NCBI GenBank assembly: GCA_937625935.1
Contig: OW569360.1
Span: forward strand, 310,001-374,000
Length of the DNA stretch: 64,000 nt
DNA from: Tetramitus jugosus
Taxonomy: Eukaryota > Heterolobosea > Eutetramitea > Acrasida > Vahlkampfiidae
Direction of reading: 5' to 3'
In this document: piece after piece, positions 8,744 through 44,720 of the stretch
Position numbering within the stretch: the stretch's first letter is position 1
How the letters are laid out: each line of letters starts with the position of its first letter
The notes under the pieces: generated by a model
Seen by the model: the letters and a program-made list of their open reading frames with translations, nothing else
The model's database searches: none
What the model was told of the DNA's origin: nothing
Program-made: the position numbers and the translations under genes

Positions 8744-8840
8744 CTCCCATACCGGGACTCGAACCCGGGTCTTCCGGGGACTTTTGCATTTCAGCTTGGA
8801 AGTGAAAGCCGGATATCCTAACCAGCTAGACTATATGGGA
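8744..8840 (-). tRNA. tRNA-Glu(UUC) with a 24-nt intron
   Basis: Read on the minus strand, a complete cloverleaf is present. The acceptor stem TCCCATA (8834-8840) pairs perfectly with TATGGGA (8745-8751). The anticodon stem TCCGG/CCGGA encloses the loop CTTTCA+C, and the T-arm CCGGG-TTCGAGT-CCCGG is perfect. Anticodon TTC lies at 8804-8806. A 24-nt intron at 8779-8802 sits at the canonical 37/38 position; removing it restores a 7-nt loop. A T4 run at 8737-8740 can serve as the Pol III terminator. A retroposed element is inserted 36 bp upstream of the 5' end. Confidence 0.93.
8779..8802 (-). other. tRNA-Glu intron
   Basis: 24-nt insertion between anticodon-loop positions 37 and 38. It is the only interruption of an otherwise perfect tRNA-Glu. 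One-base ambiguity exists because a C can be assigned to either junction. Confidence 0.8.
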
Positions 8841-8876
8841 ATATATCTATTTCTCAGCCTTAAGAATTAGGTGCCC

Positions 8877-8895
8877 AAAACGTTTTTTGAGGTGA
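8877..8895 (+). repeat. target-site duplication, left copy
   Basis: The 19-bp sequence aaaacgttttttgaggtga is found here and again at 10281-10299, bracketing the retroposed element. The bases just outside and inside the copies differ (c at 8896, a at 10300), which fixes the right edge. The four leading A residues overlap the poly(A) tail on the right copy. Confidence 0.9.
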
Positions 8896-8900
8896 CGCCG

Positions 8901-10145
8901 ATGAAAAAACGAACAAACACCCCTGTTGTTCGTGAGTATGAGAATCCACGCTATGCTGTGTGGACCACAGCACCAAGAGGAACTGCTCCAAGCAGCAAGG
9001 AGGTCATCATCACTGGAAAGTGCGATGACTCTCCAAAAGCTGCCTTGGCCAAGAAAATTGGCTTGGATTTTGGTGATTTGCTCACCAGGGTCCAAGTCAT
9101 CAAGAAGGGCCCCAAGAGGTTTGTTGCGTGGGTAACTGTTGTTGATGACAACATTTACCCATTTGTTGAATCCTTCAACCGCAACAAGAAGATGAGTGGC
9201 TGCAAGGCAGCACTCAAGCACAACGTTGATTGTGACAAGAAGGTCGTCCTCCACGGAGTCAAAGGTAAGACGGAGGACGACATCAAGGCCATGCTCGGCA
9301 CAACAAAGGTCAAGAATGTGCTCAAGAAGCACAACACTGCCTTTGTTGTGATGGAGTCTGAAACGTATGCCGAAGCTTTGCTTCGGAACGTTCAAGCCAT
9401 GCCAGTGGAGGTGGAAGCAAAGCGCTTCCTTCCACGCCCACGTGACCCTGTCAAGGCTGTCAGCAAGAGGCTGACTAAGATGTATCAAGAACTCCTGGCT
9501 GTGGTGGACGACCTGCGCCACCAAGTCAGTGTGTTAAAAGAAATGGCTTCCGACAACCGGATTCCCCTCGAGTCCCCGTCTCCAAGGACGCCGGACCGAA
9601 TCTCCGAATTCGAACCTTCGACTCCGTCTACGACCGATGACTGGGAGTCGATCATGCCGGAGTCCCGCCCCGTTACTCCAACTACGGTCACCCAAGAGCC
9701 AACCAACAACACCATTGATGAGGATGCTCGTAACAGAGCAATCCTCGAGCTAGTATTGAACACCTCCGAGGTGTTCACGAAAGCCAAGAAGGAGATTGCT
9801 GCCCGAGCAATCATGGTGGACCGTGCAAGAAGCACAACCACACAAGAGGATCCAGTTGAGTTGGACCTCTGTAACCCCGACTGCGAGTTACAGAGTCCCC
9901 AACTCAACGAGAACAAGAAACGATCAGCACGTGTCACCGTTGGTGACACTACTGCTAACAAGATCCCGGCCAGGTTGGCCAGTATCAAGTCAGGTGCTCT
10001 CCGTAGGTCCTACCAACTGGCTAGGACTACGGAGCCATCTGATCTCACCAGTGGTGCTCCAGTCGGTAGTGGAGGCCCTCGCAACGAATCCCTGAAGAAG
10101 GGATCAAAACAACATTCCAAGAAGAGAATGAATCCTGTTGCGTAG
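8901..10145 (+). CDS. retroelement ORF1-like protein with two RRM-like folds and a coiled coil
   Basis: 414 residues from the ATG at 8901; a GTG ten codons upstream lies in the target duplication and is not part of the element. Two successive beta-alpha-beta-beta-alpha patterns are visible. The first (about 33-100) starts KEVIITGKCDD and continues VQVIKK, FVAWVTVV. The second (about 112-185) starts KKVVLHGVKGKTEDDI and continues VKNVLKKHNTAFVVMES. A short heptad-like helix follows (about 190-220, MYQELLAVVDDLRHQVSVLKEMA), then a Pro/Ser/Thr-rich linker, a helix with RNRAILELVLNTSEVFTKAKKEIAARA, and a basic tail. Nucleic-acid-binding ORF1 proteins of LINEs combine RRM and coiled-coil modules; that role is inferred. 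No catalytic motif is seen. The family itself was not recognised. Confidence 0.6.
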   Translation: MKKRTNTPVVREYENPRYAVWTTAPRGTAPSSKEVIITGKCDDSPKAALAKKIGLDFGDLLTRVQVIKKGPKRFVAWVTVVDDNIYPFVESFNRNKKMSGCKAALKHNVDCDKKVVLHGVKGKTEDDIKAMLGTTKVKNVLKKHNTAFVVMESETYAEALLRNVQAMPVEVEAKRFLPRPRDPVKAVSKRLTKMYQELLAVVDDLRHQVSVLKEMASDNRIPLESPSPRTPDRISEFEPSTPSTTDDWESIMPESRPVTPTTVTQEPTNNTIDEDARNRAILELVLNTSEVFTKAKKEIAARAIMVDRARSTTTQEDPVELDLCNPDCELQSPQLNENKKRSARVTVGDTTANKIPARLASIKSGALRRSYQLARTTEPSDLTSGAPVGSGGPRNESLKKGSKQHSKKRMNPVA

Positions 10146-10187
10146 GCCTGCCACTCCACTGGGCAAGCACCACACCATGTTAGACAA

Positions 10188-10213
10188 TTGAGAGCAGGCA
10201 AGCCTGCTCTCAA
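10188..10213 (+). repeat. perfect 11-bp hairpin in the element's 3' UTR
   Basis: Left arm ttgagagcagg at 10188-10198, loop caag, right arm cctgctctcaa at 10203-10213. It begins 43 bp after the ORF stop. 3' stem-loops are known recognition elements for some LINE reverse transcriptases; function here is inferred. Confidence 0.8.
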
Positions 10214-10280
10214 ACAAAAGAAAAATAAAAGTTCCGCAACGTGGTGCTCACGCACCATTTGTTGTATTAAAAAAAAAAAA

Positions 10281-10299
10281 AAAACGTTTTTTGAGGTGA
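10281..10299 (+). repeat. target-site duplication, right copy
   Basis: Second copy of aaaacgttttttgaggtga, directly after the poly(A) tract. Collapsing the two copies and removing 8896-10280 recreates an uninterrupted spacer upstream of tRNA-Glu. Confidence 0.9.
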
Positions 10300-10855
10300 A
10301 GACAATAAGGGATCATATTAATGGATGAGCTCAGTAACGACCCAAATGAAATCCGTCAAACTGGTTCCAATACCAAGTTCAATGGGGGTTGCACAACTCA
10401 CAGTGTGTGGACCTAAGGTTTGATAACCAACAGTGGTGCAACGGCAGGCGTACAACTAACGAGCAAAGGAAGACTGGGAAACAATGTTAGGTATGTTAGG
10501 TGTGGAAACGCAAGCTGCGAAACAAGTTGCCAAAGGTCTAAAAAAAATGGAATCAAAAGGATATCACCAAGAAGAAAGCGAAACAGTTCATGGACTAAGA
10601 GGAGATAACGAACAATGCAACAGCATAAACGAAACAGCTACATCATGTAGAGAGAATCAACAACGAATAAACAGCGCAACCATTGGTTGAGGAGGGCCAG
10701 TGGATTTCAGACTGCAAGTATCCATACCACTTGGACGACTCACCCATTGCCATTTCTTGCGTCTTCATCAGACAGGTATCGTTGCATAGCTTCATTCATC
10801 TCGGCAAAAGAAATTTCGCAATCGGGGGAATGTCCTGATCAAAAACAGAAAGCAA
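10300..10855. other. gene-free spacer with decayed coding relics
   Basis: No intact gene is visible between the retroposed element and the cyclophilin. Short frames on both strands are interrupted. One minus-strand stretch at 10643-10795 resembles a SET-domain methyltransferase fragment and is listed separately. The rest looks like decayed or intergenic DNA. Confidence 0.45.
10643..10795 (-). pseudogene. possible relic of a SET-domain (LSMT/SETD-type) methyltransferase
   Basis: A 50-codon minus-strand frame contains MGESSKWYGYLQSEIHWP. This resembles the E..G..S.WyPYLqsLP block of Rubisco-LSMT/SETD3/SETD6-type SET proteins. The overlapping frame immediately upstream (ISFAEMNEAMQRYLSDEDARNG) is also coding-like but shifted, as expected of a frameshifted remnant. 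No flanking SET core is present. The similarity covers only about 18 residues and may be chance. Confidence 0.25.
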
Positions 10856-11520
10856 ATGTCAGTCACGCTCCACACCAGCTGTGGTGACCTCAAAATTGAA
10901 TTGTTTTGTGATAAATGTCCAAAAGCAACAGAGGTATCTAATGAGCATTTCACAAACGTTTTTGATCTTACTTTGAAAAGAAGCTAAAGCCAATTCTCAG
11001 AATTTTTTAGCCTCGTGTGCCTCAGGGTACTATGACGGAACGATCTTTCACCGAAACTCGCCTGGTTTCCTCGTCCAGGGTGGAGATCCAACTGGCACAG
11101 GCAAAGGAGGACAGAGTATCTGGGGCAGATCATTTGAGGACGAATTTAGCGACGATCTGTTGCATGACAAGAGAGGAATCGTTGCCATGGCCAACAGGGG
11201 AGCAAACACCAATAACTCACAGTTCTACAGTTAGTAGTTGTTTGATTAGTTTTTTTTTAAATATTCACAGTTGTCTTGCTTTTTCTTATTATTCCATTGA
11301 ATTGAATTTGATCTGACATTCAAGTACAATAACAGTTACCTATGCACCTCAAGCTCACTTGAACAATGTCTCGACTGTTTTTGGACATGTAATCTCTGGC
11401 ATGGACACATTGAACAAGATGGAGAAGGTACCAACAAAGGGAAAGAGAGAAAAGCCAACAGAGGATATCACCATTCACAAGGTCACTATTCACGCAAACC
11501 CAATTGCTCCTCTCATCTAA
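10856..11520 (+). CDS. PPIL3: PPIL3-type peptidyl-prolyl cis-trans isomerase (cyclophilin), three exons
   Basis: Exons are 10856-10933, 11001-11229 and 11336-11520. Introns are 67 and 106 nt with donors gtatct and gttagt and acceptors ctcag and aacag. The spliced product is 163 residues, the usual PPIL3 length (about 161). It begins [20 protein letters not shown], then [54 protein letters not shown] and [13 protein letters not shown]. The catalytic Arg in FHRN and the [12 protein letters not shown] loop are conserved. Human PPIL3 is a spliceosome-associated cyclophilin, so a role in pre-mRNA processing is inferred from family. Exon boundaries were set by frame continuity and alignment to the cyclophilin pattern; an unspliced reading breaks after about 70 codons. 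Confidence 0.9.
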
Positions 11521-12016
11521 TTCAGTCTCTCTCGCTCTCTCAAGGACCTCCCAAGAGCCAAATGAACGCGACACATGTTCTGATCGAACGCTATCAGTCA
11601 GGGATGACCTTGCCTAAAAATAAGCAAAGCTTCTCTCGGAGGCAACAGAGCGTGTCATCCATCTGTGAAAAAAAAAAGCTTTGCCCAACAAAAAAACATC
11701 AAACAACAACAAACCATTCAAACAACAAGCACACCTTTTTTGAGTCCCACAACACCACCTGCACACTCACCACACCTAAAGCTAACACACACCGTGTGTA
11801 ACAACACCGACACCTCCTCCCACTACTACCAACGAAAAAAATTCATTTTTTTGCAGCTCTACGACAACAAAAAAAGCTTTTTTCATCCGTCCAAAATTTC
11901 TCCTACCTACTCTGCTACCCAAACCCAAAATCGAACGACTCTCCTCTATATACACACATTTTTGCACGCACTCTTCCAACACCTCCTCCTGTTCATTGTA
12001 TTTGTAAATACTCACG
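11521..12016. other. gene-free spacer and 5' leader of the CCCH gene
   Basis: CA-rich, low-complexity sequence between two co-oriented genes. Overlapping short frames on both strands are Thr/Pro/Gln-biased translation of the repeats, and I see no gene. It probably contains the 3' UTR of the cyclophilin and the promoter and leader of the zinc-finger gene. Confidence 0.5.
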
Positions 12017-13990
12017 ATGAACCACAATCCAATTCAGTGGCAACAACAACAACAACAACATCATGGTGGACTTGACTCACCTGTTGGTGTGTGGTTCACT
12101 AGTACCCACAGCCCTTCTTCTCCACAACATCAACAACAGCATCAACAACAACAACAGATGAGAATCAATGAACCAATGAGTTGGGATGAATTGACTCATA
12201 ATAATAATAACAATAGTAATAATAATAGTAATAATAGTCCAAATCGATTCAATAGTCGACCATTGCAACATGGTCACTCTCTCTCCTTCTCCTCTGTATC
12301 ATCATCCTTGTCATTTGACAGTGAATTTCAATTCTTGTCAACATTGACATCAACAACATCAACTACCACTCCATTTCGTTCATTGACCAGTCAACAACAA
12401 CAACAACAGATGGTTGATTTTGAAGAAGAGGATTGTTTCAATCAAATGATTGATATGGATCATCATTTCCCACATCATCATCATCATCATCACAATAGTA
12501 ATAAGAATAATAATAGAAGTGAGATGATGATGATGATGAATGATAGTAGTGGTGTTGATATTGACAATGATGATTATGAAGTGTTGAGATCAGTGAATGA
12601 ATTGTTGCGTGGAGAAGAAGGAGAAGCAGGAAGTACAAATGATGATAATGATGAAACTCAACATCACTATGGTTTCAACCACACACGTGCCTCTCCTCAC
12701 TCACACGCATCACTCCTCTCATTTCCACATCAACAACAACATCATCATCAACAACAGCAACAGCAATCCTTTTCGTTCCATTCATCACCTTCTTCTCCAT
12801 CACCTTCTTCCTCTTCACCCTCTCCTTCGCCGTCATTGTTTGGCCCAAGTGCACAATATCATCATCATCAACAACAACACCCTTCCAAACCTCCACAACA
12901 ACAACATCACAGCAGTCGAAAGACTGTACCCTGTAAATTTTATCAACATGGAATGTGTAGATCGGGGGACAATTGTAGATTTTTTCATGAAACACCCATG
13001 TTGGATTCTTCACTCTATGAACATCATAACAATAACAGTGGTTTTCATGTATCATCTTCACCGATTGCAGTGAACAATCGATCATCAATTCGAACCTCAT
13101 CTTCTTCGTTGTCATCCTCTGTTGGGTCAAACAGTAGCATGGGAAGTGTTCACAATTATTTGAGCTCATCCAACAGTGCCACTGGCCATCATCATCATCA
13201 CCATCATAATGGCCATAACAGCCATAATAACAAGTATTGCAAGTTTTATGAACAAGGCTCTTGTCAAAGAGGTCAAGCATGTCCATTTATTCATGATCCA
13301 TCAAGAGTTGTGTCGTTGAATAGCAACCACAACCACAACCACAATAACACTAGCTATGGTGGTGGTGGAAATGGTATCAGTTATCATGGTGGTGAGACTG
13401 GTAATAACAATAATAGTAGTGGTGGCATTGGTTTCATTCATAATCGATCCATGTCATCATCATCATCTTCCATATCTCCCTCCTCTCATTTCACACCCTT
13501 TCACACGAACAACAATAACACTGGAAATTATTTCCAAATGGATCACTCAATGTACTATAGCCCACAGGCACACAGCTCCATGTTGACCATGGCTGGATTT
13601 GATTCCCCTAGTACCTCCCCTACCAACTCTTCGAATGTCGCCTCAGCAACCACTGCCACTGAACATTTGGACAATCAAAGTGTTGATGACGAAGAGATCA
13701 AGGATCAGAAGTCATCAGACGATGAATCAAAAGTCTGTCCATTTTACTTGAAAGGTGAGTGTCGATATGGAGAAAGATGTCGAAATTTGCATATTCGATT
13801 GTCTACAAACAAGAAAAAGTTTGATTTGAATGCATTGGAGAGAATGAGCAGAATTCCATGCAAGTATCATAGACAGGGTGTTTGTCCCTTTGGCAGCATG
13901 TGCTACTTCAATCACGCAATTGTGGATGAAGAAGAGGAACGGGAACGATTAAGTCGCTCTGCAAATCGTGGCGCTGAAGTAACCTTTTAG
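12017..13990 (+). CDS. CCCH zinc-finger protein with four fingers and long Gln/His/Asn/Ser runs
   Basis: 657 residues. Four C-x7/8-C-x5-C-x3-H fingers can be read: CKFYQHGMCRSGDNCRFFH (about 308-326), CKFYEQGSCQRGQACPFIH (about 408-426), CPFYLKGECRYGERCRNLH (about 574-592) and CKYHRQGVCPFGSMCYFNH (about 615-633). Such fingers bind single-stranded RNA in TTP, Nab2, Unkempt and plant TZF proteins. The intervening sequence is dominated by Gln, His, Asn and Ser homopolymers, with no RING or RRM, so it is not a makorin. A role in mRNA stability or translation is inferred. ATG context and the preceding leader support the start at 12017. The homopolymer tracts would be length-variable between strains. 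Confidence 0.85.
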   Translation: MNHNPIQWQQQQQQHHGGLDSPVGVWFTSTHSPSSPQHQQQHQQQQQMRINEPMSWDELTHNNNNNSNNNSNNSPNRFNSRPLQHGHSLSFSSVSSSLSFDSEFQFLSTLTSTTSTTTPFRSLTSQQQQQQMVDFEEEDCFNQMIDMDHHFPHHHHHHHNSNKNNNRSEMMMMMNDSSGVDIDNDDYEVLRSVNELLRGEEGEAGSTNDDNDETQHHYGFNHTRASPHSHASLLSFPHQQQHHHQQQQQQSFSFHSSPSSPSPSSSSPSPSPSLFGPSAQYHHHQQQHPSKPPQQQHHSSRKTVPCKFYQHGMCRSGDNCRFFHETPMLDSSLYEHHNNNSGFHVSSSPIAVNNRSSIRTSSSSLSSSVGSNSSMGSVHNYLSSSNSATGHHHHHHHNGHNSHNNKYCKFYEQGSCQRGQACPFIHDPSRVVSLNSNHNHNHNNTSYGGGGNGISYHGGETGNNNNSSGGIGFIHNRSMSSSSSSISPSSHFTPFHTNNNNTGNYFQMDHSMYYSPQAHSSMLTMAGFDSPSTSPTNSSNVASATTATEHLDNQSVDDEEIKDQKSSDDESKVCPFYLKGECRYGERCRNLHIRLSTNKKKFDLNALERMSRIPCKYHRQGVCPFGSMCYFNHAIVDEEEERERLSRSANRGAEVTF

Positions 13991-14150
13991 GATACATCAT
14001 GGCAAATATGTGTTTCCTCAAGTTATCGTTTGAGGACCAAATGTACATACAGAAATACTGCATCAGCAATAAATAATTTAATTTTGAATATCTATTGACA
14101 TCTGTCAACTGTGCACACCACAAACGCAAGCTCTTAAGACGAAGGAAGAA

Positions 14151-14534
14151 ATGAATGTCAATAGCATGCAATCAAGGGAAACGTCGTCGTGTCGAACTCC
14201 CCTTCGAATTACTCGACAATACCATTATTCCTCGAGCGATGTCTCCAAGCAATCAGAACAGTCCAAGACCAAGTTGACCGAGCTTGAGCACTCGTGTGAA
14301 CAAGCTCCCAATGTTGTTATGGACAATTCTCCAAGCAGAACAATCATTCATTATACAAGCAATCCGAACATAAGCTCAAAATCCTCACCTCGGAGGGATC
14401 TATCAAGCGGTGCCGCTGTAGGCTCACCACAAAGAAACTTGGTTCACTCAACTCCTGTTCTGATACCTAAGCCTAGATTAACATTCAATCGAAATATGGC
14501 TCAGTCCGAAGAATCAGTGCCAAAGAGTACTTGA
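14151..14534 (+). CDS. small hypothetical Ser/Thr/Pro-rich protein
   Basis: 127 residues, starting MNVNSMQSRETSSCRTPLRI and ending SVPKST. It is rich in Ser, Thr, Arg, Asn and Pro with several SP/TP and RxxS phosphorylation-type sites, and has no transmembrane segment or recognised domain. It fills the gap between the CCCH gene and the convergent membrane-protein gene and does not overlap another gene in antisense, so it is probably real, though a long 3' UTR frame is possible. No function is suggested. Confidence 0.45.
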   Translation: MNVNSMQSRETSSCRTPLRITRQYHYSSSDVSKQSEQSKTKLTELEHSCEQAPNVVMDNSPSRTIIHYTSNPNISSKSSPRRDLSSGAAVGSPQRNLVHSTPVLIPKPRLTFNRNMAQSEESVPKST

Positions 14535-14558
14535 TCCCAATAAAGGACTTGGTGAAAT

Positions 14559-16073
14559 TTAAGATTTTCGCAAGAGTTCCTCCCTCTCTTCCGAGTTGTG
14601 AATTGTGGAGCAATACTTGTTGATTCCAATGGCAAAAGTACAAACAACAACCATCAGAAAGGCAACTGCACACACAATTCCTGATATAATCAGCTTTTCT
14701 TTCAAAGAGAGATATCTGGCTATGCACCACGTAGCTTTTCTTTGGGCAATCAGACGTATTGTATCTTCTCTGTCATATTCGTTCTCGATACCCATATGCA
14801 CCCATCGATTATAGGCATTGTCTAGTCCATTCTTTGGGACACCGATTCCGTCCAGTCTCGATACATTGAACTGAAAGCCTTCGGAGGAAAAAGTTGAGAT
14901 CCAATGTTGCAAACTCGTCTGATCTGTCACTAAAGGAACAACATCCTTAACGACTCCAGTATTAATTGAGTTATTCAACATACCACTTCCAGATTGAAAG
15001 AACAGGGTAGGTTTGCCCAGCATGAGTGCAATAATATTGGCATTGGAATCTTGTGAGACCACAAAAAGAGAAACAAGAGATGCTCTAATGGCAGACAGAG
15101 AGACACCTGGGATCGGGTTTGCTGGTAGTACATGTACTTGATTGGATAGTTTCAACCTCCGGACCAACTTTTCCTCGAGTCTAGATAAGTACATTTCAGG
15201 TGACGATGCAATAATTACATCATACCTCTCCAACAACTTCAATTCAATGCCATACTTCAAAAATTGCTCCAATGAATCCAAATAACCATCACCAGACGTA
15301 CCAACAAAGGCGATCAAGTCCTTTGAATACAACTTTACATCAATCTCTCTTTCAATCTCTCTCAGAATTTGTCCATTAGTCTCATTCGATCGCTCCATCA
15401 TCCAAGTACTCACAAACGCATCACCAACTGTATGAACCTTGTCCCTCATATCACCTCCCATGACTTCAAACGCCTCCGTCATACTCTCCGATTCAGTCCA
15501 CACCTCTGTCCACACTGACGAATTATGAAACAAGTCCGAAGCAGTACTATTCCACTTCCATATCATATCTGTGAAATAGGCCACACTCACAATGGATGCA
15601 TCACTCGAAACAAACGATTCCACAATCTGACTCTGCACTCTCGTGCTCGTTCCACTAATGATGGCTCTCGGGCTCACACAACTCATCAACTTTTTCAGTT
15701 CACTCTGACTCAACTCACTCCACACTTGATCTTTTTTCCAGCCTTGCACACAAATGTCAAAACTCAAGCTCACACACAGCTCAGCATACTCTGCTGACTC
15801 GTATAGCATATCCTCTGCCGTGTCACCAATCAACAACAATGTGACAGAGTGAGGCGTATCAGACAAGATACGATCAATTATGGGTGTCATGCTGTTCACT
15901 TCACTGCTCGAATGAATGAGAAACAGGAGATCGGTTGTAATGGGAGGAACACGGGAGCGATGGGGCAGTTGATCAATGCTCGTCGTGACGCAGGAGATGA
16001 ACCACAAGAGTGACAGTATCAACAACAACAACAGCAATAATGGTGAATGATGCTTGGATCTCTTGGTCGTCAT
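14559..16073 (-). CDS. type I membrane protein of unknown function with a glycosyltransferase-B-like segment
   Basis: 504 residues from the ATG at 16073. The open frame extends to 16259 but the start was chosen because it immediately precedes a signal peptide (MTTKRSKHHSPLLLLLLLIL). A membrane helix lies near the C-terminus (about 465-490, LIISGIVCAVAFLMVVVCTF), followed by a short tail. The lumenal part alternates strands and helices and includes ALMLGKPTLFFQSGSGM followed by VVPLVTDQTSLQHWI. This is reminiscent of the nucleotide-sugar-binding half of GT-B transferases or UDP-GlcNAc epimerases, but no diagnostic motif is complete. Several N-x-S/T sequons (WNSTAS, FHNSSV, RSNETN) agree with secretion. 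Function not recognised. Confidence 0.55.
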   Translation of the reverse strand: MTTKRSKHHSPLLLLLLLILSLLWFISCVTTSIDQLPHRSRVPPITTDLLFLIHSSSEVNSMTPIIDRILSDTPHSVTLLLIGDTAEDMLYESAEYAELCVSLSFDICVQGWKKDQVWSELSQSELKKLMSCVSPRAIISGTSTRVQSQIVESFVSSDASIVSVAYFTDMIWKWNSTASDLFHNSSVWTEVWTESESMTEAFEVMGGDMRDKVHTVGDAFVSTWMMERSNETNGQILREIEREIDVKLYSKDLIAFVGTSGDGYLDSLEQFLKYGIELKLLERYDVIIASSPEMYLSRLEEKLVRRLKLSNQVHVLPANPIPGVSLSAIRASLVSLFVVSQDSNANIIALMLGKPTLFFQSGSGMLNNSINTGVVKDVVPLVTDQTSLQHWISTFSSEGFQFNVSRLDGIGVPKNGLDNAYNRWVHMGIENEYDREDTIRLIAQRKATWCIARYLSLKEKLIISGIVCAVAFLMVVVCTFAIGINKYCSTIHNSEEREELLRKS

Positions 16074-16365
16074 TTTGGTATCATTCAATGCGTTGGTTGT
16101 TTTTTTCGTCTTGGAAAGAAGAATTCCTCTTCGAATTGGGCATTTCAGAGAGAAGATTACGTGAGCACTCATTTTCCCTGTCCACATCAATCGACACGAC
16201 GGTCGTTGATGCAGAAAAGCAGAGATCGTGAAGTGTGATGAGTTCAAGCTTGGGAACATTGTACAATGTCATCATTATGCAAAGAGGATCTCAACTGTCC
16301 TTTGCGATTACAAAATATTTGATGGAAAATGACCGTGTTGCGAATAATTATGGTATACAATGACT

Positions 16366-18126: not shown

Positions 18127-18312
18127 CGTGTTTGTCAAACAGATGATATTTTGTTGTTGTTTATTTTGTTTGTTGTGTGTTTTGTGTGGCCTGTGGAACA
18201 AAGCACATTTCCAATGTGTTCCTCAAATTGGAACTTGAAGCGAAATGCACCTTCGACTAACGGACAAATAAAAAGAAGAATACCGAAAAAAAGAGCGCGA
18301 ACAGTGTGAAAA

Positions 18313-21603: not shown

Positions 21604-21696
21604 ATTATTTATATGACTAAAACGCGGATAACAAACTAAATAATCATGCTTGTGATATAAGACCTAATCCCAGGAAGAACATTTTTAAGGTGTATA

Positions 21697-22674: not shown

Positions 22675-22797
22675 GTTATTGACTCGATGTTGTTATCTTT
22701 CTTGTGGAAATGTTAGTATCGCCAGTATGTTTTTCCGTAACACTCCTCCTTGGTCAGCGGAAATAATTGTTCGGCCAAAATATGGCAGTTGAAGGAC

Positions 22798-23935: not shown

Positions 23936-24320
23936 TCACACCAGATCACGTTGTTTTCTCATCCCTTTCAGAGATATTGAGTGGTGTTCACAATACTCAA
24001 GTACCTTGACTACGAAAGTATGGTCTCGTCCGTTGTTGTACCAACTGAGTCCGCGAGTGCCCTTCAAAGAAACTAATGCTCTCTCTGAGATCGATTCTTG
24101 ACTGCAGCCATTCATATAGAGTGTATGAACACCAGACAAATGAGGAAACGCATTGTCGGTGATTTGAAGGCAATAACTCATATCAAGTGTGTGAATGCCA
24201 GTCAAATATGAAAATGCATCATCCGTGACATTCTTACAACCAATCATAATGAGAGTGTGAATTCCCTTCAAATAAGAAAATGAGTTATCAGTGATTTGAT
24301 TGCAACCACTCATATTGAGA

Positions 24321-24432
24321 GTGTGAATGCCAGTCAAGTAAGAAAATCCCTCCTCCGTGATATTCTTGCAACCACTAATACGGAGCGTGTGAATGCCAAT
24401 CAAATGAGGAAACGCACGATCTGTGATTTGAT
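24321..24432 (-). repeat. 112-bp near-identical internal repeat (copy 1 of 2)
   Basis: Matches 24781-24892 with three mismatches in 112 bp (about 97% identity). Other LRR units in the same gene are much more diverged, so this is a recent segmental duplication or gene-conversion tract inside the LRR array. Confidence 0.85.
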
Positions 24433-24780
24433 GACAATCAGTCATATCAAGTACTTGAATGCCTGTTAAATGAACGAATGCTCGATCGGTAATTTGATTA
24501 CAATACCTCATACTAAGGGTGTGAATTCCAGTCAAATACCCAAAAGCCTGATCTGTGATCCGTTTGCACGATGTAATATCAAGCGTATGAATGCCAGTCA
24601 AATGACGAAATGCATTGTCTGAAATTTGATTACAATAACTCATTCCGAGTGTGTGAATACCAGTCAAATGTGAAAAGGCCTGATCTGTGATTCGAATACA
24701 AGATCTCATCTCGAGTGTGAATACCAATCAACTGCGAAAAGGCTTCATCCCTTATATGGTCACAAGATATCATTTCAAGC

Positions 24781-24892
24781 GTGTGAATGCCAGTCAAGTA
24801 AGAAAATCCCTCCTCCGTGATATTCCTGCAACCACTAATACGGAGCGTGTGAATGCCAACCAAATGAGGAAATGCACGATCTGTGATTTGAT
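24781..24892 (-). repeat. 112-bp near-identical internal repeat (copy 2 of 2)
   Basis: Partner of 24321-24432, offset 460 bp. Restoring the 2-bp loss between them makes the offset 462 bp, a multiple of three, which agrees with the frameshift call. Confidence 0.85.
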
Positions 24893-25211
24893 AGCAGTAA
24901 CTCATATCAAGTGTGTGAATACTACCTTTGAAAAACTGGAAATGCTCATCCGTCACATAAGGACTTCTGTACAAGTTAACATTGAACAGTGTGCCCTTCG
25001 CCAGCTTAAACAACTGCTCAATCTCTACAGGCTCCATATCGTGTTTGAGTGTCATGCTCTTGTTGGACATGAGAAGTCGATTGAATTTAAATTGATTGAG
25101 CCCTTTGCAAGTGTAACTCAATCGCATCCATTCTCGAGTGTCACAAAACTCGATCACTTTTGACCATGCATCCTTGCAAAGTTCAGAACAAATTTCAATG
25201 CTCACTTCCAT

Positions 25212-32986: not shown

Positions 32987-33091
32987 GATCTTCACCTTGA
33001 AGAAAATAAGTAACAGGCAGTTTATGTTACAAGGAACATTCAACATTGAGGTTTTATTGAACGACAAACGGATTGAGTTCAGAAAAGAAAA

Positions 33092-34051: not shown

Positions 34052-34164
34052 CAATAAAAACATATAAGCAATAGAAATTAGATAGTAAGGAATGGTAGTG
34101 GAACACTTGGAACACAGAACAGCTTCGGGATGTGTAACAAAAAGTGGATGTTTCATTTGAATTG

Positions 34165-37100: not shown

Positions 37101-39576
37101 TTTGATCTAATACCAGATCGACAATACCCAACGTTGAGTCGTTGCGAAAGAGAGTCCAGGAGAGCTCAAATCCATCTCTTGCATTGCGATCTAGAACGGC
37201 TTTGAATTGTACTCTCCAACTTGTTGCAATGTATGGATAATAATCTGTAACGATAATTGGTACAGGTAAGCCCGAGTTGGCAATTGATTCAATGATGACC
37301 GAGTACCTAGAAGATCGCCCACCAACAATGTATGTCACTTCAAAAGAATATCTTCCAGCAGTGTGAAATACAAATGATATATCACTGCCTGTCGGCAGTG
37401 GTTCATATGGACATGCTCCTGTAGGGGAAATAGCAGAACAACTCCAAAGGTACTGAGCAGGCAAATCACTAGCACCTGGATAATAAGATTCAGCGGCACT
37501 TAGATACACAGTTGTATTCACTGCGACCCGTCTATTACCATATCTTATTCTTGCGACGGGATCATCGTCTAGTACCTGAATCGTAACAGAGTCTGAAATG
37601 GTGACATTGGTGATATCTGCTGGCATCTTCACAGAGAATTTAAATGTATAGGTGCCTGAACCAAGGGGGAATTGGTAGGAGTCGAAATTTAAACGAGAGG
37701 ATGACATCGTGGTATTGAAAAATTCTGGGTTAATATCGAATGTTGTCCTCTCCCAAATGTACTCAACATTAGGAACACTTGGAGAGCAAGAGGTCACCAC
37801 TGCAATCAGCGAGAGAGCATCGCGTCTCCTAATTTGCTGATTTCCTCCCCTAATGCGGACTGATAGTTTGGAGCAATCAAATGAACAATCACTACCAAGA
37901 TAGTTCTTAGCACAACTACAAACATTACTTTCTATACAGGTTCCAAATCCAGAACATGCATTAAGAGCAGAACAATTCGCGTATGTTTCCATTTCCATCA
38001 TAAATTGACAGCCAGGTGTGACCATGTCAAACGTGTTGTCGAATGACGGGTTGACTGATAGTTGACCACCAATAAATAATCGATCATTACTTACAATAGC
38101 TAAGGACGTAACGATATCATCACCAGTTCCACCTATTCTTCGGGCCCAAACGGGTGTTCCATCTGGTGCAAATTTGGCCACGAACCCATCTGTGTCCTCG
38201 GCATATAATTCGCTGTTACCAACAGTCATATTTTGTGCAAATAATCCAGCAATATATACCTCCAATCTCGAATTAACACCGATAGAGAATGGTTGACTCG
38301 TGTCTGTTGAAGTAATGCCTGACAACCACACAATATTACCAGTGCCAGCTAAGAGCTTCAACACAAAAGTATTGACAGTAGTCGACGTTAAAGTATGACC
38401 ACCAAAGTCAATATCACCTGAAAAGGCACCGGAAACATATAAATTATTCACTTCGTCTCTATCCAAGGATACTGATGCAATAGTGGTGTTGAACGTTCCA
38501 TAGAACTGCGCATATTGTAACGCACCACTCGTATCAAGCTTGGCAATAAACACATACACTGTATCGCTAAGCAAAGTGTAATTGGTTGATTGACATTGGA
38601 ACCAAGGACCTTGAACAATACCCAACACAAAAATATTATCGTTTGCATCAATTTGTACAGAAGAACCGAGATCTTGACCCGGTCCACCACATGCAATTGC
38701 CCATTGAACCGTTCCACTAGAGCTAATCTTTGTCACAAAGATGTCATCAGTACCGTAAAATGGTGTTGATAAGGCTCCAAAGGTACCCACATTACCCACA
38801 TTACCAACAAGGACCACATCACCCTGAGAATTGACCTTGATATCGCTGAGAGATTCATCATTACATCACAACACAACAATAAAGAACAATAGACCAAGTC
38901 AGTCACCTCCAACATCAAAAAAAAAACAGTTGGGAATAAAAAAAATATATCAATCGAGCACTACATACACTGCAGAATCGACACCGTCTGCACTGCCAAT
39001 CGCCTTCATCCACTGGAGAGTTCCATCTACATTATACTTTGCCACAATGCCATCAACTGAGCCCGTTCCTGGTATCAAACTCAAAGATCTTTGAAGTGCT
39101 ACTGCTTTGAATGGTTCTTCGTCAAACAGGGTAGGATTGGACAGAGAGTGACCCACAACGTACAAATCTCCAGTCTTCTCATTCACACTTCCAGTTGATA
39201 ACACCTCAGCAGCCAATCCCGTGACAGAGGAAGCCCACTGCACAAACGATTGTGTCTCACCCTTCTTAAAAAAGAGAGCATCAGCTGGAATGCCAGCTGT
39301 AAATGTAAAGTTTTTGGCGGGATCAGTCCCCGATGTCGGAAAAATGATGGAAGAACCTAAAATTTGAGAAAAACCAATGAGTGATCCCTGTTGGTCAGAG
39401 ATGAAACTATTGAGAGTATCAGTTGATTTTCCATATGTAAAAACTGTGTTTGTTAAAAATTTTCCCCGATAGGTATCAGGAGGCAGAGTGAGGAGGGAGG
39501 TGGTGAAGGGTATCTGCTGCAGAAGCAGTAGAATAGAAAATAGGAGTGTCACCAACGGTGGAAGAAGCAGTGACAT
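34165..39576 (-). CDS. adhesion-GPCR-like receptor with C-terminal RGS domain, two exons
   Basis: Exons are 38969-39576 and 34165-38845 with a 123-nt intron (donor gtatgt, acceptor ctcag). Product 1762 residues. A signal peptide (MSLLLPPLVTLLFSILLLLQ) leads to beta-propeller-like GDVVLVGNV/GTLQWMKAIG repeats (about 60-490), one EGF module (CSGFGTCIESNVCSCAKNYL, about 500-530) and PKD/REJ-like Ig folds (DPVARIRYGNRRVAVNTTVYL and ESYYPGA, about 550-750). A long helical stretch and a GAIN/GPS-type site follow (CYFGGL, then CRCNHTTSFAAFIEYP, about 1250-1290). Seven hydrophobic helices come next (about 1300-1590). The tail is an RGS fold (about 1620-1755, REFSLENLLLWKELDTL, then RFETCAEYRLYLKA). 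Such RGS tails accelerate GTP hydrolysis by G-alpha. Ligand and coupling unknown. Confidence 0.82.
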
Positions 39577-39752
39577 TTGCTGCTGCTTTTTGTGTGGGAG
39601 GTGCTTGTTGGCGGTTAGAGATGATGGTGTTGCGTGAGACACTCTGTTTTTTTTGGACGGATGTCTTTTGGCGCTCAAGTGTCACTCAAGGAGGGAGTTT
39701 CTTTTTCTCCGTTTATATGTCGCAGATTCGGCGGCGGTTTCCACACAGGTTC

Positions 39753-40364
39753 TTAGTTGTCAAAGAAGAATACGAGGCGTACATCCTCACCCTCTCCGTC
39801 CTCTGATAACTCCTCGAGAGTAGGAATATCATTCTCGCAAAAACCATCTGCGGCACTTCGATATGTAGCACCCCAATGGACGGTTGTGTAGCAATTGCTT
39901 TGGATCGAACCTGTGGCGATCATATTTTCCATTTCTTCTTCACTCAGATGCACAATGTTGGGGCCGCTAATAAAAGTGCAATAGCTCGTTGGAGCACCCT
40001 CCTTCTTGTACACCAGGAATTCTTGAGCATTGATCGTTCCTTGTTTTTGTGTTTCTTGGTCCCAGTCGTATTCTTTCAATTCCTTTAATGACAAATAGGA
40101 GTGAGAATGACCGTCATAGCCCCATTGGTCAGACTCCTTCTGAACTGCGTCAGAAACATCGTATGGAAGACCCTTGGGCTCCGAGATTGGATTGAATCCC
40201 GCACCGGTGGAAGCGCCAGCAAAACCAAAGCCATTTCTCACATCAGCCAAGATCGCAAATAGGTCATAGTTTCTTCCCATTTGGCAATCCACATCATCCT
40301 TCAACTCCCATATCTCTGATTCCTTGTTGTACTTTTCGATGAAGACGTGGATATCGCAACCCAT
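39753..40364 (-). CDS. MGCDIH-family protein of unknown function
   Basis: 203 residues from the ATG at 40364. Upstream in-frame sequence to 40520 is derived from a decayed neighbour copy, not from this protein. The N-terminus MGCDIHVFIEKYNKESEIWE is the hallmark of a family I recall mainly from bacteria, phages and large DNA viruses. NYDLFAILADVRNGFGFAGA and GLPYDVSD follow, with HSHSYLSLKEL. The Cys-Asp-His start and a later HSHS suggest a metal site, but no reaction is established. Acidic C-terminus (EELSEDGEGEDVRLVFFFDN). A foreign origin is plausible but base composition is not obviously different. Confidence 0.7.
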   Translation of the reverse strand: MGCDIHVFIEKYNKESEIWELKDDVDCQMGRNYDLFAILADVRNGFGFAGASTGAGFNPISEPKGLPYDVSDAVQKESDQWGYDGHSHSYLSLKELKEYDWDQETQKQGTINAQEFLVYKKEGAPTSYCTFISGPNIVHLSEEEMENMIATGSIQSNCYTTVHWGATYRSAADGFCENDIPTLEELSEDGEGEDVRLVFFFDN

Positions 40365-40499
40365 GATTGTTAATCTTTGACTTCGTTTGTTGTGGACAGA
40401 ATTTAGTCGAAAAATACAACTTCTGAAGCGGGCGAACTGAGTGAATCCGAAATCTCCAACTACGGTGTTTTTGGTGGGGCAGGCTGAGTTGTGAGATGT

Positions 40500-40590
40500 C
40501 ATACCTCTCCATTCTGACAACTACTCGAGAGTAGGAATATCATGGTCGCAAAAGCCGCGTGCTGCACTTCGATATGTCACTCCCAATGTA
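40500..40590 (-). pseudogene. relic of a second MGCDIH-family gene (3' end only)
   Basis: Minus-strand translation reads VTYRSAARGFCDHDIPTLE, stop, LSEWRG, against ATYRSAADGFCENDIPTLEELSEDGE in the intact gene. DNA matches 39800-39885 over about 75 bp at roughly 80% identity. The rest of the copy is missing, and the intact gene's promoter now lies in or next to it, as after a tandem duplication and collapse. Confidence 0.75.
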
Positions 40591-40755
40591 TGTGGTAAAC
40601 AAAACAATGAAACAATGATGTACTTCATTCGGAGTATGATTCAAGTTGAGGCTTCGTGTGAAACAACAAGATCGCATCACAATGACTGTACTTTTATTAT
40701 TTACAGATCGTAGACCTTTGGGCAACGAACATTAATCAGAGTGGTATCAGTACAC

Positions 40756-40935
40756 CTACTTCTTCTTCTCCTCCTCGTCCTTCTCAATGAATTCGTCCCA
40801 GTTAGAATGGAGCTGTTCCTGTTCATAACCGTGCATATCTCCCTTCACATCATTCTTTTCGACAATCTTTGAAGGAAGGTGTTCTAGACCAACGTCCTTC
40901 TTCTCTGTCTCTAGTAGTTGCTTGTCTCTATCCAT
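40756..40935 (-). CDS. possible small acidic/basic protein or last exon (59 residues)
   Basis: The frame MDRDKQLLETEKKDVGLEHL ends SNWDEFIEKDEEEKKK at the TAG 40756-40758. It is strongly charged, helical and coding-like, and is too short for most gene callers. The frame stays open upstream for ten codons (QFFIAYHKIR) back to a cctag that could be a splice acceptor. A nearby minus-strand stretch (about 40970-41080, TIFLDGFSIKPKFLVDQPF) may be an earlier exon in another phase. No family recognised. Confidence 0.4.
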   Translation of the reverse strand: MDRDKQLLETEKKDVGLEHLPSKIVEKNDVKGDMHGYEQEQLHSNWDEFIEKDEEEKKK

Positions 40936-41144
40936 TCTGATCTTATGGTATGCTATGAAGAATTGCTAGGTTCTTGTTCTCTCGATGAATACTTGGGTTT
41001 CTTGTTTCTGAAAGGTTGGTCAACCAAAAATTTCGGTTTTATGCTAAACCCATCTAGGAAAATCGTGTTGTATTTTGGTCACTCAGGAGTAAAATTTCCT
41101 AGGAAAGTTGTCGGATCAGAGATCAATCAGCTGACAGTTCTTTA

Positions 41145-44100
41145 TTACATGAGCCATCCCTTGCATTTTGATGTTCCACAGTGGCACCTGAGTCTCTGCT
41201 TTATGATATAATTATAGTTATAAGTTAATTCTTCACCACATCTGATATTACGGTTCGCAAAAAAGGCAATTCTGGACAAGTGAGGATTGCGTGTGTCAAC
41301 AGACACTTCTCTGGAGATCATATTGGGTGAACAGGAGTGGTTGAGCCATCGAGCAACATTTCCATACCGATTCGAGTCGATACTGTACTTGTTATCTTCA
41401 GATCTGACGTCAAACAAGTAACTGCATTCGTACTTTGTATCGTAGGCTAGGCCTCTCTCCTCTGCGATGGCTTCTGTGATCAACTCACCTACATATTCAG
41501 CCACAAATTGACCTCTCTTGATATCCTCCAATGCTCTGACACCCCAACCCTTCAACTCTGTTTTAAAAAGTTCCATTTTGACCGAGAGACCTCGCTGAAC
41601 AACTCGGTTGGAACAAGTTTTTGGATCACACTTACAGTTGTCATTACATTCAAATATGTGGAATATCGAATTGAATCCTCTTTTTGTCAACAATCCTTCT
41701 TCATTGTAGGCAGCGCCTCCCATGCGGGACACACATTCACAGCTCAACCCACATGTGACAGGGTTTTGTTCCTCAGACTCCTTCTCTTCTTTCTTCTTTG
41801 TTGATTGTGTTCGAATCTTGCTCCTCGACTTGGAAGTATGCTTTGATTTATGACCACATTTGCACCCTCGAACATCATCATTTTCTAATTCCTTCTCAAT
41901 TATGTGTGCAATGGAGGGCTCTGGACGAGTCTCGAGTAAATAATGGAAGGAATCAAATAATTTTAAGTCAACTTCGTTGATAGAACTGACAGGATATCGG
42001 GACAATCCGCGTGATATGTCATCGAACTTGTAATAAAACCTCAGATCATCGTCAAAATCGATAGCACACATTGATTTAGGAAGTTTGTTGCCATTTCCAT
42101 CATCTCTATCTCCGCTTTCGCTCTCTTCATTGATGATTCGAGAAACTGCAACTGTTGCATGTTGTTTGTATGTATCCATGAGATTTTCCCAACCTCTTCT
42201 GCATTTGAGGAGTCGATCCTTTAGTTTTTCAAGGGTTAATGTGTTCATATTCACATTTTTGCCATCCTTCTTCATCCAAATATTCTGGAGTTTCTCCAGT
42301 GTTTCTTGTTTGACTCTTCGAAGTTTTTGCTCTGTTTCTTCTAATCGTCCAATACCTGGATCACATGTTTCATACACAACACTCGAAAAGGTTTCAAATG
42401 CACCCAGATGTGTCAAGTGCAACTTGATTGCGTCTGGATATCGACCACACAACAAAGATAAACCATATATAATGTAGTGCAGAGAAATTTCTTGCCCATA
42501 ATTATCTAAATAATCCTTAATAAGTTCAATCTCACGTTCAAATAGTAGATTAATCTTTGGTAATTTGCAAAATATACGCCAATATGGCTTCTGCATATCA
42601 GAATATATGTTTGTAAACAGAGTGCTAGCGTTAGTCTGCTTGCCACCAAATTTAGGCAGGAAAGAGAAGCATAGTTTTTCATTTGGATGCTTCTCCTCTT
42701 CGATCATTCTATCCTGCTTCTCAACATCTTCCCGCGTCTGCAACTTGTGATCTTGCTGCAACTCAGGCTCAAATGTAATCTCGTGATTCTCCCAATGGAA
42801 GCAATAATGCTCAATACCAATCTTTTCAACCAACTTAACCTGAAATTCTATTCGATCATAAAGCACCATAACTGGTTCGCAACAAAAATATGCTGTCACT
42901 ACAGCATACTTTCTTATGGTGCCGTCATCTGCGGTCTCCCAATCTTCTCCGTTTGGTGCGTCCCTATAACACCAACCCAAATAAATAACAGAATGAGTAT
43001 TATCAATTACAGCTTCAATAATGGAGGTCGAAGCATGGAAATGCTTAAATCCGTTTAGCTCAACATCCTCCTTGCACTGATCCAGTGTTTTTTGATACAT
43101 TTGATTCAATATTGAATCCTTCATTGAGGAACTTAATAGGGCAAACTCCTTCTTTTGAAGATGCTTAAATTTTTGATACAAATCCTCTCTGCTCTCAATG
43201 AAAAACTTGTGTAATACCAAGTGTATTGTGTCACATATCATCTTATTAAACTGTCTAATCTTTCTTTGGTTTTTGATGTCATAGAAGAAGGAAGGACACT
43301 TAATCTTTGTTCTTCTTTCATTGTACTGGAACCCTAATCGCTTATACCATTTAAAAACATCATTATTCGACATTAGAATTTCATTCGACGCCGTATACGG
43401 AGTCACAATTGAATACAAATTAGACAACGTCTCTACTCCATCCACATTCTCATCAATCATTGTTAAATCATCAAAACAATTTGTCATTCTGTGAATCAAT
43501 AGAAAACCTTGCATGAAATCAATGGGACTGTGCTGCAAAAACTCATATGCCAACCGTTCTGTGGCCACCTGTGAAAACACTCTTTTGGAACTCGAGAACC
43601 AACCACATACTTGATTCTTCATCTTTGCATCACTCTTCTCACTCTCTTCATCCTTCTTTTCGATCGTATCATGATTCATCGCATCTGTATCATGATCGAC
43701 CGAAAAAACTTGATAAGACGAAGAAGGAGGAGCAGTCGTTGTCGTCGCTGGTAAAAATTCAATCTTGGCCAGAGTGAAACGACTGGACGATCGCCGTTGT
43801 CGTTTTTTCAATGGACTTGGACTCACGATCAAACATGGCTCTTCATTCGTGACTTCCTCCACCTTTTTCTTTTCATGATCATGATGACCACTGCCGGTAC
43901 TTTGCTCATTCTCATTTTCATTATTCTTACTGTTATTGTTATTATTTCTTGTGTTGTGATAGTGATGATTGATCGGCAGAGAAGAATAACAAGCAGAGCT
44001 ATTGTCACCTGCATCTACATGAGAATGTTCTTCCTTGTTATTGACAACAGGTGACTGTTGTTGAGAGTGGTTGTTGTTATTATGCTGTTGTTGTTGCTGT

Positions 44101-44414
44101 TCTTGTTCTTCATCTTGTTGTTGTTGCTTGATCATCCATAGTCGACGTTTGGATCGGCGCGGTGGTGAAGTCGAAGTAGATGGTGATGACTTTGCATATT
44201 TAATGACAGGTTTTCTGGGAGTGGGCATTGGAAATGGGAGTGCATAAGTTGTGGATGATTTTCTTTGGCTTCCAACAAAGTTCTCATTTTTCACGAGAAG
44301 TTTCTCCGTGCATTTCGCGCCAAAACGCTTTTTGCTAATACAAAAAATGGAGTTTTTATTTCTTTGTTGGACTGTTGGGCTTGCAGTACTTGTCTCCACG
44401 ACTTGGCTCGGCAT
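41145..44414 (-). CDS. SET-domain histone lysine methyltransferase (SUV39-like)
   Basis: 1089 residues from the ATG at 44414; the frame runs on to 44492 only via a GTG. The first 250 residues are Gln/Asn/Ser-rich and basic. The C-terminal 215 residues hold a pre-SET-like Cys cluster (GCKCGHKS, CGLSCECVS, CNDNCKCDPKTCSNRVVQRG) and the SET core: GWGVRALEDIKRGQFVAEYVGELIT, YLFDV, DSNRYGNVARWLNHSCSPNM, and ELTYNYNY. A post-SET RCHCGTSKCKGWLM closes the protein. The NHSCxPN and ELTYxY blocks for SAM and lysine binding are intact. The pattern best fits H3K9 methyltransferases of the SUV39/G9a class, active in heterochromatin; an ASH1/SET2-type target cannot be excluded. No chromodomain was seen. 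Confidence 0.88.
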   Translation of the reverse strand: MPSQVVETSTASPTVQQRNKNSIFCISKKRFGAKCTEKLLVKNENFVGSQRKSSTTYALPFPMPTPRKPVIKYAKSSPSTSTSPPRRSKRRLWMIKQQQQDEEQEQQQQQHNNNNHSQQQSPVVNNKEEHSHVDAGDNSSACYSSLPINHHYHNTRNNNNNSKNNENENEQSTGSGHHDHEKKKVEEVTNEEPCLIVSPSPLKKRQRRSSSRFTLAKIEFLPATTTTAPPSSSYQVFSVDHDTDAMNHDTIEKKDEESEKSDAKMKNQVCGWFSSSKRVFSQVATERLAYEFLQHSPIDFMQGFLLIHRMTNCFDDLTMIDENVDGVETLSNLYSIVTPYTASNEILMSNNDVFKWYKRLGFQYNERRTKIKCPSFFYDIKNQRKIRQFNKMICDTIHLVLHKFFIESREDLYQKFKHLQKKEFALLSSSMKDSILNQMYQKTLDQCKEDVELNGFKHFHASTSIIEAVIDNTHSVIYLGWCYRDAPNGEDWETADDGTIRKYAVVTAYFCCEPVMVLYDRIEFQVKLVEKIGIEHYCFHWENHEITFEPELQQDHKLQTREDVEKQDRMIEEEKHPNEKLCFSFLPKFGGKQTNASTLFTNIYSDMQKPYWRIFCKLPKINLLFEREIELIKDYLDNYGQEISLHYIIYGLSLLCGRYPDAIKLHLTHLGAFETFSSVVYETCDPGIGRLEETEQKLRRVKQETLEKLQNIWMKKDGKNVNMNTLTLEKLKDRLLKCRRGWENLMDTYKQHATVAVSRIINEESESGDRDDGNGNKLPKSMCAIDFDDDLRFYYKFDDISRGLSRYPVSSINEVDLKLFDSFHYLLETRPEPSIAHIIEKELENDDVRGCKCGHKSKHTSKSRSKIRTQSTKKKEEKESEEQNPVTCGLSCECVSRMGGAAYNEEGLLTKRGFNSIFHIFECNDNCKCDPKTCSNRVVQRGLSVKMELFKTELKGWGVRALEDIKRGQFVAEYVGELITEAIAEERGLAYDTKYECSYLFDVRSEDNKYSIDSNRYGNVARWLNHSCSPNMISREVSVDTRNPHLSRIAFFANRNIRCGEELTYNYNYIIKQRLRCHCGTSKCKGWLM

Positions 44415-44529
44415 TGTGTTTGTCGTTTCTGTTAGTTGTGGTGGATACCTGACTGTGAGTTTAGAAGGCACATGCCTGTAGTTCGCCTGCACACTTCCTT
44501 TCGCGGACGATAGAATGACAGTGCCATCA

Positions 44530-44543
44530 GACCTCTGGGCACC
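44530..44543 (+). repeat. target-site duplication of the small retroposon, distal copy
   Basis: gacctctgggcacc occurs here and at 44656-44669, directly bracketing a 112-bp insert with an oligo(T)/(A) tail. Flanking bases differ on both sides, giving a clean 14-bp duplication. Confidence 0.85.
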
Positions 44544-44655
44544 TTTTTTTTTGATACAACGCGCAGTTGCTCACTTTATTGTTTATCATTCTTTCCATTA
44601 GTTTCACTTATACTCATTGTGCCGCTCGCAGAGCGTTACTTCAGTTTGTAGTCCC
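44544..44655 (-). mobile_element. 112-bp poly(A)-tailed SINE-like retroposon
   Basis: Read on the minus strand the insert begins GGGACTACAAACTG, has a CGCTC-tgc-GAGCG hairpin (44623-44635) and an AATAAA signal, and ends TTGTATC followed by nine A. It is bounded by a 14-bp duplication. It encodes nothing. Its end (AATAAA, then GCAAC, then GTTGTAT-C/T-An) resembles the end of the larger element at 8896-10280. This suggests the two share 3' recognition sequences, or that this is a severely 5'-truncated relative. It lies 30 bp (to the near duplication) upstream of the tRNA-Ala 5' end and points away from it. Confidence 0.75.
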
Positions 44656-44669
44656 GACCTCTGGGCACC
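44656..44669 (+). repeat. target-site duplication of the small retroposon, tRNA-proximal copy
   Basis: Second gacctctgggcacc copy; 30 bp separate it from the first base of tRNA-Ala at 44700. Confidence 0.85.
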
Positions 44670-44720
44670 CAATACTCTATTTTTAGAAATACAGAAAGAG
44701 GGGTCATGGCTCAGTTGGTA

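Follow-up and report, generated by a model that had tools for sequence, protein, structure and literature searches.

Non-LTR retrotransposons placed upstream of tRNA and 5S rRNA genes in Tetramitus jugosus

INTRODUCTION

Insertion beside tRNA genes as a safe-harbour strategy has been characterised in detail in slime moulds. According to the cited parts of the published accounts, the non-long terminal repeat (non-LTR) retrotransposon TRE5-A (DRE) of Dictyostelium discoideum inserts ~47 bp upstream of tRNA genes with its 5' end toward the gene, and also makes use of 5S genes; it has two open reading frames (ORFs) and encodes APE and reverse transcriptase (RT) domains, and TRE5-A.2, a non-autonomous derivative that carries ORF1, is thought to be moved in trans (PMC5391098, PMC5911963). 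Tethering of TRE5-A to TFIIIB by the ORF1 protein is also reported there (PMC5911963, PMC5006619). Here we describe elements of similar behaviour in Tetramitus jugosus (Heterolobosea; Vahlkampfiidae), beginning with a stretch of 64,000 nucleotides (assembly GCA_937625935.1, contig OW569360.1, positions 310,001 to 374,000; hereafter the window), in which a preliminary description had seen two poly(A)-tailed elements close to tRNA genes. They very probably represent a lineage of non-LTR retrotransposons that integrates by target-primed reverse transcription (TPRT) at the upstream edge of RNA polymerase III (Pol III) complexes.

Two other described systems are of interest for comparison. NLTR-B of Polysphondylium pallidum, likewise a non-LTR element, inserts 39-64 bp upstream of tRNA genes as far as the cited sections state (PMC5911963, PMC5006619), and Ty3 of Saccharomyces cerevisiae, which likewise has Pol III genes as targets, is described as reaching them via TFIIIB (PMC5006619). 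In the review table cited here, the tRNA-targeted non-LTR elements all come from social amoebae (PMC5911963), and according to the cited part of another article, Physarum, Acanthamoeba and Protostelium yielded no TRE-like elements (PMC5006619).

RESULTS

Two elements next to tRNA genes in the window

Element 1 (8896-10280, forward strand) belongs to a family of ORF1-only non-LTR retrotransposons, here called E1, as judged from its family copies and junctions. Its 5' end points toward an intron-bearing tRNA-Glu(TTC) gene on the reverse strand (8744-8840; Rfam RF00005, 55.9 bits; ARAGORN with introns) and its poly(A) lies distal. It is flanked by identical 19-bp target-site duplications, AAAACGTTTTTTGAGGTGA, at 8877-8895 on the tRNA side and at 10281-10299 on the distal side; its exact 3' edge is ambiguous inside its A-run. 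ORF1 (8901-10145, forward; 414 aa) starts ~5 nt from the 5' end of the element, and the 3' terminal motif GCAAC..GTTGTATT (10236-10269, forward), which is common to the LINEs (long interspersed nuclear elements) and the E2 family introduced below, precedes the poly(A). The poly(A)-tailed retroposon, the 19-bp duplications and the orientation given in the preliminary description are thus real; the distance from the duplication to the 5' end of the minus-strand tRNA gene, as we measured it, is 35 bp.

Element 2 (44544-44655, reverse strand) is the 3' end of a 5'-truncated LINE, based on 18 genome matches and an alignment with three relatives. In this alignment ~34 nt are missing between two hairpins of the 3' untranslated region (UTR) that the relatives have. 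The element measures exactly 112 bp, is flanked by 14-bp duplications, GACCTCTGGGCACC, at 44530-44543 (distal) and 44656-44669 (tRNA-proximal), and has its poly(A) on the side away from the tRNA and its 5' end facing it, with 30 bp to the 5' part of a tRNA-Ala(TGC) gene that starts at 44700; length, duplications, orientation and distance had been described correctly. The gene named as hit is indeed present 30 bp away but it is not intact: its D-loop is split by an insert of ~1.3 kb, which separates the 20-nt 5' part (44700-44719, forward) from the 3' part (46037-46089, forward; Rfam match 46015-46089). As had been stated, only two tRNA genes occur in the window; the Rfam scan gives exactly tRNA-Glu and tRNA-Ala. 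The view that two independent retroposons are present did not hold. Two unrelated retroposons were ruled out, as element 2 is a LINE 3' end with the terminal motif of element 1, and judged by their sequences the two elements are two insertions of one lineage.

The insert in the D-loop (44720-46036, ~1.32 kb) has short inverted ends, ACCCGAAT..ATTCGGGT, and a TA on each edge. Three more copies with ~90-92% identity are found in the genome; the left junction, searched with up to two mismatches, occurs in the window copy only.

Genome-wide placement of the E1 and E2 families

The whole genome (26.35 Mb, 56 contigs) was searched for related elements. For E1, the DNA search gave 66 match rows, among them 36 copies that include the 5' end within ~10 nt of the same position; this count leaves out every row without the 5' end and one 50-bp piece with query start 62 (C45:253512; C denotes contigs, L loci). 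Copies longer than 1.3 kb are at least 91% identical. The 5' ends of 24 of the 36 copies directly face a Pol III gene (23 tRNA genes and one 5S rRNA gene), 19 by sequence (L001, L002, L004-L008, L087-L091, L093-L095, L100, L101, L103 and L104) and five by coordinates, with C9 also supported by sequence (L011) and C5 by a B box alone. The 5S gene faced in L006 is identical over 123 bp to the 5S gene of L076, an Rfam call at C10:118604. Another 11 copies are stacked behind a further element, as seen by sequence (L003, L092, L096, L098, L099, L102 and C4) or by coordinates (C11, C7, C38 and C40), and six of these stacks could be followed to a tRNA gene (L003 to Gln, C11 and C7 to Tyr, C38 to Asn, C4 to Arg, and C40 by coordinates). 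In the last copy, L097, the 5' end is turned toward a tRNA-like stretch of 22 nt that exactly matches the 3' end of the L126 tRNA. Under random placement, the chance of 24 of 36 copies lying in this way is p ~2e-69, assuming ~430 tRNA genes (654 minus 226 B-box matches).

E2 is a second ORF1-only family, ~50% identical to E1 in ORF1. It comprises 39 protein-search matches that start at residue 6 or 7 (six rows of ~48-51% identity starting after residue 7 are left out) and 37 exact copies of the 5' end pattern. Of the 39 matches, 31 were examined; 26 of them have their 5' end toward a Pol III gene, and the other five are stacked (L113, L119, L120, L124, and C18, which lies behind a LINE fragment at a tRNA-Ile gene). 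The facing genes were identified from the flanks (13 by ARAGORN and one, L126, by Rfam among 20 fetched flanks, which were the next unresolved copies in list order; also L105, L106 and the copy in L003), by coordinates (three tRNA matches and three B boxes), and as 5S genes in three cases (L109, L123 and, by coordinates, C13). In L056 (~1560-1800) we noted a chimaera, in which an E2 5' end at a tRNA-Asp gene is fused to a LINE 3' end.

When coordinates alone are used, a target is found at at least 5 of 36 E1, at least 8 of 39 E2 and at least 6 of 35 RT copies. These values are undercounts, as they rest on 63 scored tRNA matches, 47 scored 5S matches and the first 100 B-box places; also, one of the eight E2 targets, a 5S gene lying 324 bp away in the same direction, was replaced by a tRNA-Gln gene after the flank had been read.

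LINEs and their 3' fragments

RVT_1 domains gave 73 genome matches at E <= 0.001, with open frames of up to 1,318 aa, and were present in all five ORF2s that were domain-scanned. Among 30 fetched RT loci, the 5' limit of a truncated LINE is visible in 10 (L061 and L079 were dropped, their 5' limit being ambiguous), and seven of the 10 face a Pol III gene: tRNA genes for His, Gln, Trp, Leu and Val, a 5S gene and one tRNA gene by coordinates. L073 and L077 lie at putative tRNA remnants, and L068 is without an assigned target. One LINE copy has a 435-aa ORF1, 26% identical to that of E1, which starts ~64 bp from a tRNA-Lys gene; its ORF2 is broken into several frames. The 18 matches to element 2 are likewise LINE 3' ends. 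Eight face a Pol III gene, i.e. the tRNA-Ala gene of the window, tRNA genes for His, Leu, Asn, Met, Leu and Asp, and one 5S gene; L049, the copy on C4 that leads to tRNA-Arg, makes a ninth, and L043 and L055 lie behind an E2 copy. Lack of genome-wide enrichment near Pol III genes had been named in the preliminary description as the outcome that would speak against targeting; the search found E1, E2, truncated LINEs and several 3' fragments narrowly placed upstream of such genes.

In L073, L077 and L097 the elements face apparent tRNA fragments, which suggests that some target genes were lost after insertion.

Distance and orientation

Duplications were found in 10 of 11 loci with both element ends. 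Their length is 14-19 bp and their distance to the RNA gene 30-40 bp (mean 33.6, s.d. 3.8); the 5' junction of the element, i.e. the tRNA-distal edge of the duplication, is 44-56 bp from the gene in the 10 loci, in keeping with the ~40-54 bp upstream, 5' end facing the tRNA, that we took as TRE5-like. Further duplications are seen in L051 (gap 30, 16 bp) and, at a 5S gene, in L044 (gap 28, 13 bp). Overall, the duplicated target starts ~28-40 bp upstream of the mature tRNA or 5S rRNA and is 13-19 bp long, the distance is the same for 5S and tRNA genes, and in all junctions read the 5' end of the element is turned toward the gene.

Such a regular position might also arise if the endonuclease read a DNA sequence upstream of Pol III genes rather than a bound complex. 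Indeed, TGGGCACC is present at ~-35 of both tRNA genes in the window. As a target motif it was rejected, however, since it was not seen by eye in the other flanks; the ten duplications, also compared by eye, have no visible common consensus (no formal motif search was made). We consider recognition of a DNA sequence very unlikely. Since insertions occur at 5S and tRNA genes alike and the duplications lack a visible consensus, position and not sequence seems to be decisive, and the common factor of the insertion sites would be the upstream edge of the Pol III initiation complex. The 5S rRNA genes themselves look dispersed, with the 47 best-scored matches spread over many contigs (e.g. C1, C10, C11 and C20).

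A control was made from the side of the tRNA genes, for which 1.4 kb on each side of 26 genes were compared. These were the top-scoring nuclear loci by covariance score (17 Ile, 5 Arg and 4 Lys). An ORF1 or ORF2 protein match lies within 180 bp upstream of 14 of the 26 genes and within 180 bp downstream of none (Fisher p = 1e-5); one of the reference proteins was taken from the sampled locus L014, and the positive result at L016 is a 36-aa match. The upstream matches begin 18-174 bp from the tRNA and read away from it; the upstream flank of L016 has an additional match at 388 bp that reads toward the tRNA. Within 1.4 kb, two of the 26 genes have a downstream match (Fisher p = 6e-4 for upstream versus downstream).

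These data bear on another explanation, namely that insertion is untargeted or weakly targeted and that selection in a gene-dense genome purged nearly all copies except those upstream of tRNA and 5S genes. With 22 ORFs of at least 300 aa in 64 kb, the window is gene-dense, so that safe sites would be scarce, and a few LINE fragments are indeed found away from Pol III genes. However, the start of the duplicated target varies by only ~12 bp, orientation is uniform among the junctions read, 5S and tRNA genes share the same geometry, the copy in L002, which is 98% identical to the E1 copy of the window, has the same placement at its target, and hardly any matches occur downstream of the sampled tRNA genes. 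We consider an origin of the pattern by purging very improbable.

ORF1 and the element ends

For ORF1 of eight E1 copies the pooled pN/pS is 0.18 (356 nonsynonymous and 595 synonymous pairwise differences, with non-independent pairs; the low value partly reflects source copies), and the ORF1 protein thus seems to matter for spread. Frames are broken in four of the eight copies, and private changes, 19 of them synonymous and 15 nonsynonymous, seem close to neutral, so that individual E1 inserts appear to drift. ORF1 of the window has no Pfam match above the cut-off; eight ORF1 relatives gave one match to HSBP1 at 9e-4 and four to DEAD_assoc, the best at 0.007. A PDB match of ORF1 at 6e-11 was rejected as evidence of homology, as it is the sum of five short repeats of ~9 bits each.

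The ORF1 start codon lies ~5-30 nt from the 5' end in E1, in E2 and in the one LINE 5' end that was read. A variable A-run is present at the 5' junction, 1-13 long in 23 of 25 E1 and 2-14 in 19 of 20 E2 junctions measured, and is followed by CGCAGAAAAAA in E2 and in two E1 copies. This A-run resembles an untemplated or slipped 5' poly(A) leader. At the other end, among 42 distinct E1, E2 and LINE termini ending in GTTGT(A/T)T plus poly(A), 35 have GCAA within the preceding 22 nt, compared to a background of 10%; GTTGT was required by construction of the search. Of the seven termini that lack it, four belong to E1 or E2 and have a longer loop. By complementarity, GCAAC could pair with GTTGT. 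The common 3' end of E1, E2 and LINEs fits, and suggests, movement in trans by one RT.

Other observations

Positions 24121-24920 of the window contain a repeat array with mostly 66-bp spacing, the units being 66-83% alike to the reference copy. Contigs C54 and C56 are both 49,460 bp long and have identical tRNA coordinates; C54 carries mitochondrial-type genes by reading (rps12, rpl11 and sdhB), with sdhB also found by protein search. The best matches to its product stand at 98, 87 and 82%, and among the 120 matches listed the first eukaryote with a species name is Acrasis kona at 55%.

DISCUSSION

The hallmarks of TPRT are present in these elements: they have poly(A) tails and target duplications, and 5' truncation has left copies of many different lengths. 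The stacks show repeated insertion at the same gene. A narrow distance and a single orientation, as expected for tRNA-gene-targeted non-LTR retrotransposons, are found, with exceptions among short LINE fragments, and copies with a predicted RT are present. In the mechanism that we propose, the endonuclease would be brought to the site via contact with TFIIIB or another Pol III component. The tether would probably be the ORF1 protein, which appears to be under purifying selection in E1; E1 and E2 would be copied in trans by the LINE ORF2, which may recognise the common 3' end, and orientation would be set by the DNA strand that is cut first where the bound complex ends.

Several points weigh against this mechanism or blur the pattern behind it. 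The contact with TFIIIB is inferred from the sequence pattern. In a compact genome, the pattern could be overstated by selection against insertions at other places, although such selection would not account for the narrow range of distances or the single orientation. A tRNA gene was reached for six of the 11 E1 stacks, Rfam gave no tRNA match at the presumed remnants in L073, L077 and L097, the E1 locus L004 is without a convincing duplication, and the E2 counts rest on 31 of the 39 copies. Of the 18 fragments from LINE 3' ends, L046, L052 and L054, in which the 5' end is visible, have no Pol III gene on the 5' side and no detectable duplication, and four more (L042, L047, L048 and L050) are without a 5' end in view; the former three may be rearranged fragments or off-target insertions. 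Finally, the Pfam scan listed no endonuclease domain in four of the five ORF2s, and the closest relatives of the RT among solved structures are R2 proteins, not L1. As to the endonuclease, Exo_endo_phos_2 was found below the Pfam cut-off in the ORF2 of L080, and weak matches to L1-type endonucleases (8.5e-4 and 8.6e-3) were obtained for L080, one of two ORF2s searched.

The comparison with TRE5 that had been drawn from the window alone proves apt: TRE5-A likewise has its 5' end toward the tRNA gene at ~47 bp and uses 5S genes, and it too has a satellite carrying only ORF1. There are also differences. The 5' UTR here is ~5-30 nt with a variable A-run and has no room for an A-module, the promoter module of the TRE5-A 5' UTR; two diverged ORF1-only families are present, and the 3' end carries the GCAAC..GTTGTAT motif. 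NLTR-B has an RNase H domain and separate APE, RT and RNase H frames, whereas the scan of five ORF2s of the present elements listed no RNase H match. Ty3 is an LTR element with an integrase and inserts near the transcription start; the insertions described here are TPRT products. With respect to E1 and E2, the half-LINE HAL1 of mammals is similar in that ORF1 is kept and ORF2 lost, but HAL1 is not known to have a target specificity.

The likeness raises a question of ancestry that is compatible with the proposed mechanism, i.e. whether the elements belong to the TRE5 family of Dictyostelium itself, as vertical or horizontal relatives, and are not an independent invention. Position, orientation, 5S use and the ORF1-carrying satellite agree with this, as does an RT together with a putative L1-like endonuclease in at least one ORF2. 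On the other hand, no TRE-named protein is among the listed matches of the ORF1 and ORF2 searches, most of which are unnamed, and the short 5' UTR contains no promoter-bearing A-module. We regard membership in the TRE5 family as rather unlikely. Tentatively, and still as a minority view, a Pol III-complex-targeted LINE system could have evolved independently outside the dictyostelids, in which copies that have lost their 5' UTR and any promoter of their own would be transcribed from the DNA just upstream of the gene they face and the ORF1 tether would act in cis. If this is true, copies would gain a promoter along with a safe site through targeting, and the strict orientation would be accounted for; satellites with ORF1 alone would be frequent since the TFIIIB tether, ORF1, has to be kept in cis while ORF2 acts in trans.

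Among the papers listed, judged by title and beginning of abstract, there was no report of such a system for this lineage, and a further search gave no paper combining Naegleria, a tRNA gene and a non-LTR retrotransposon, with subscription papers sparsely covered in both cases. The system described here is close in its behaviour to a known one and, for this lineage, apparently unreported. A second system resembling TRE5-A makes it testable whether binding of ORF1 to TFIIIB is a repeatable solution, and also whether the upstream regions of tRNA genes serve as promoters for the elements that reside there; more than half of the sampled tRNA genes of T. jugosus (14/26) already carry a copy.

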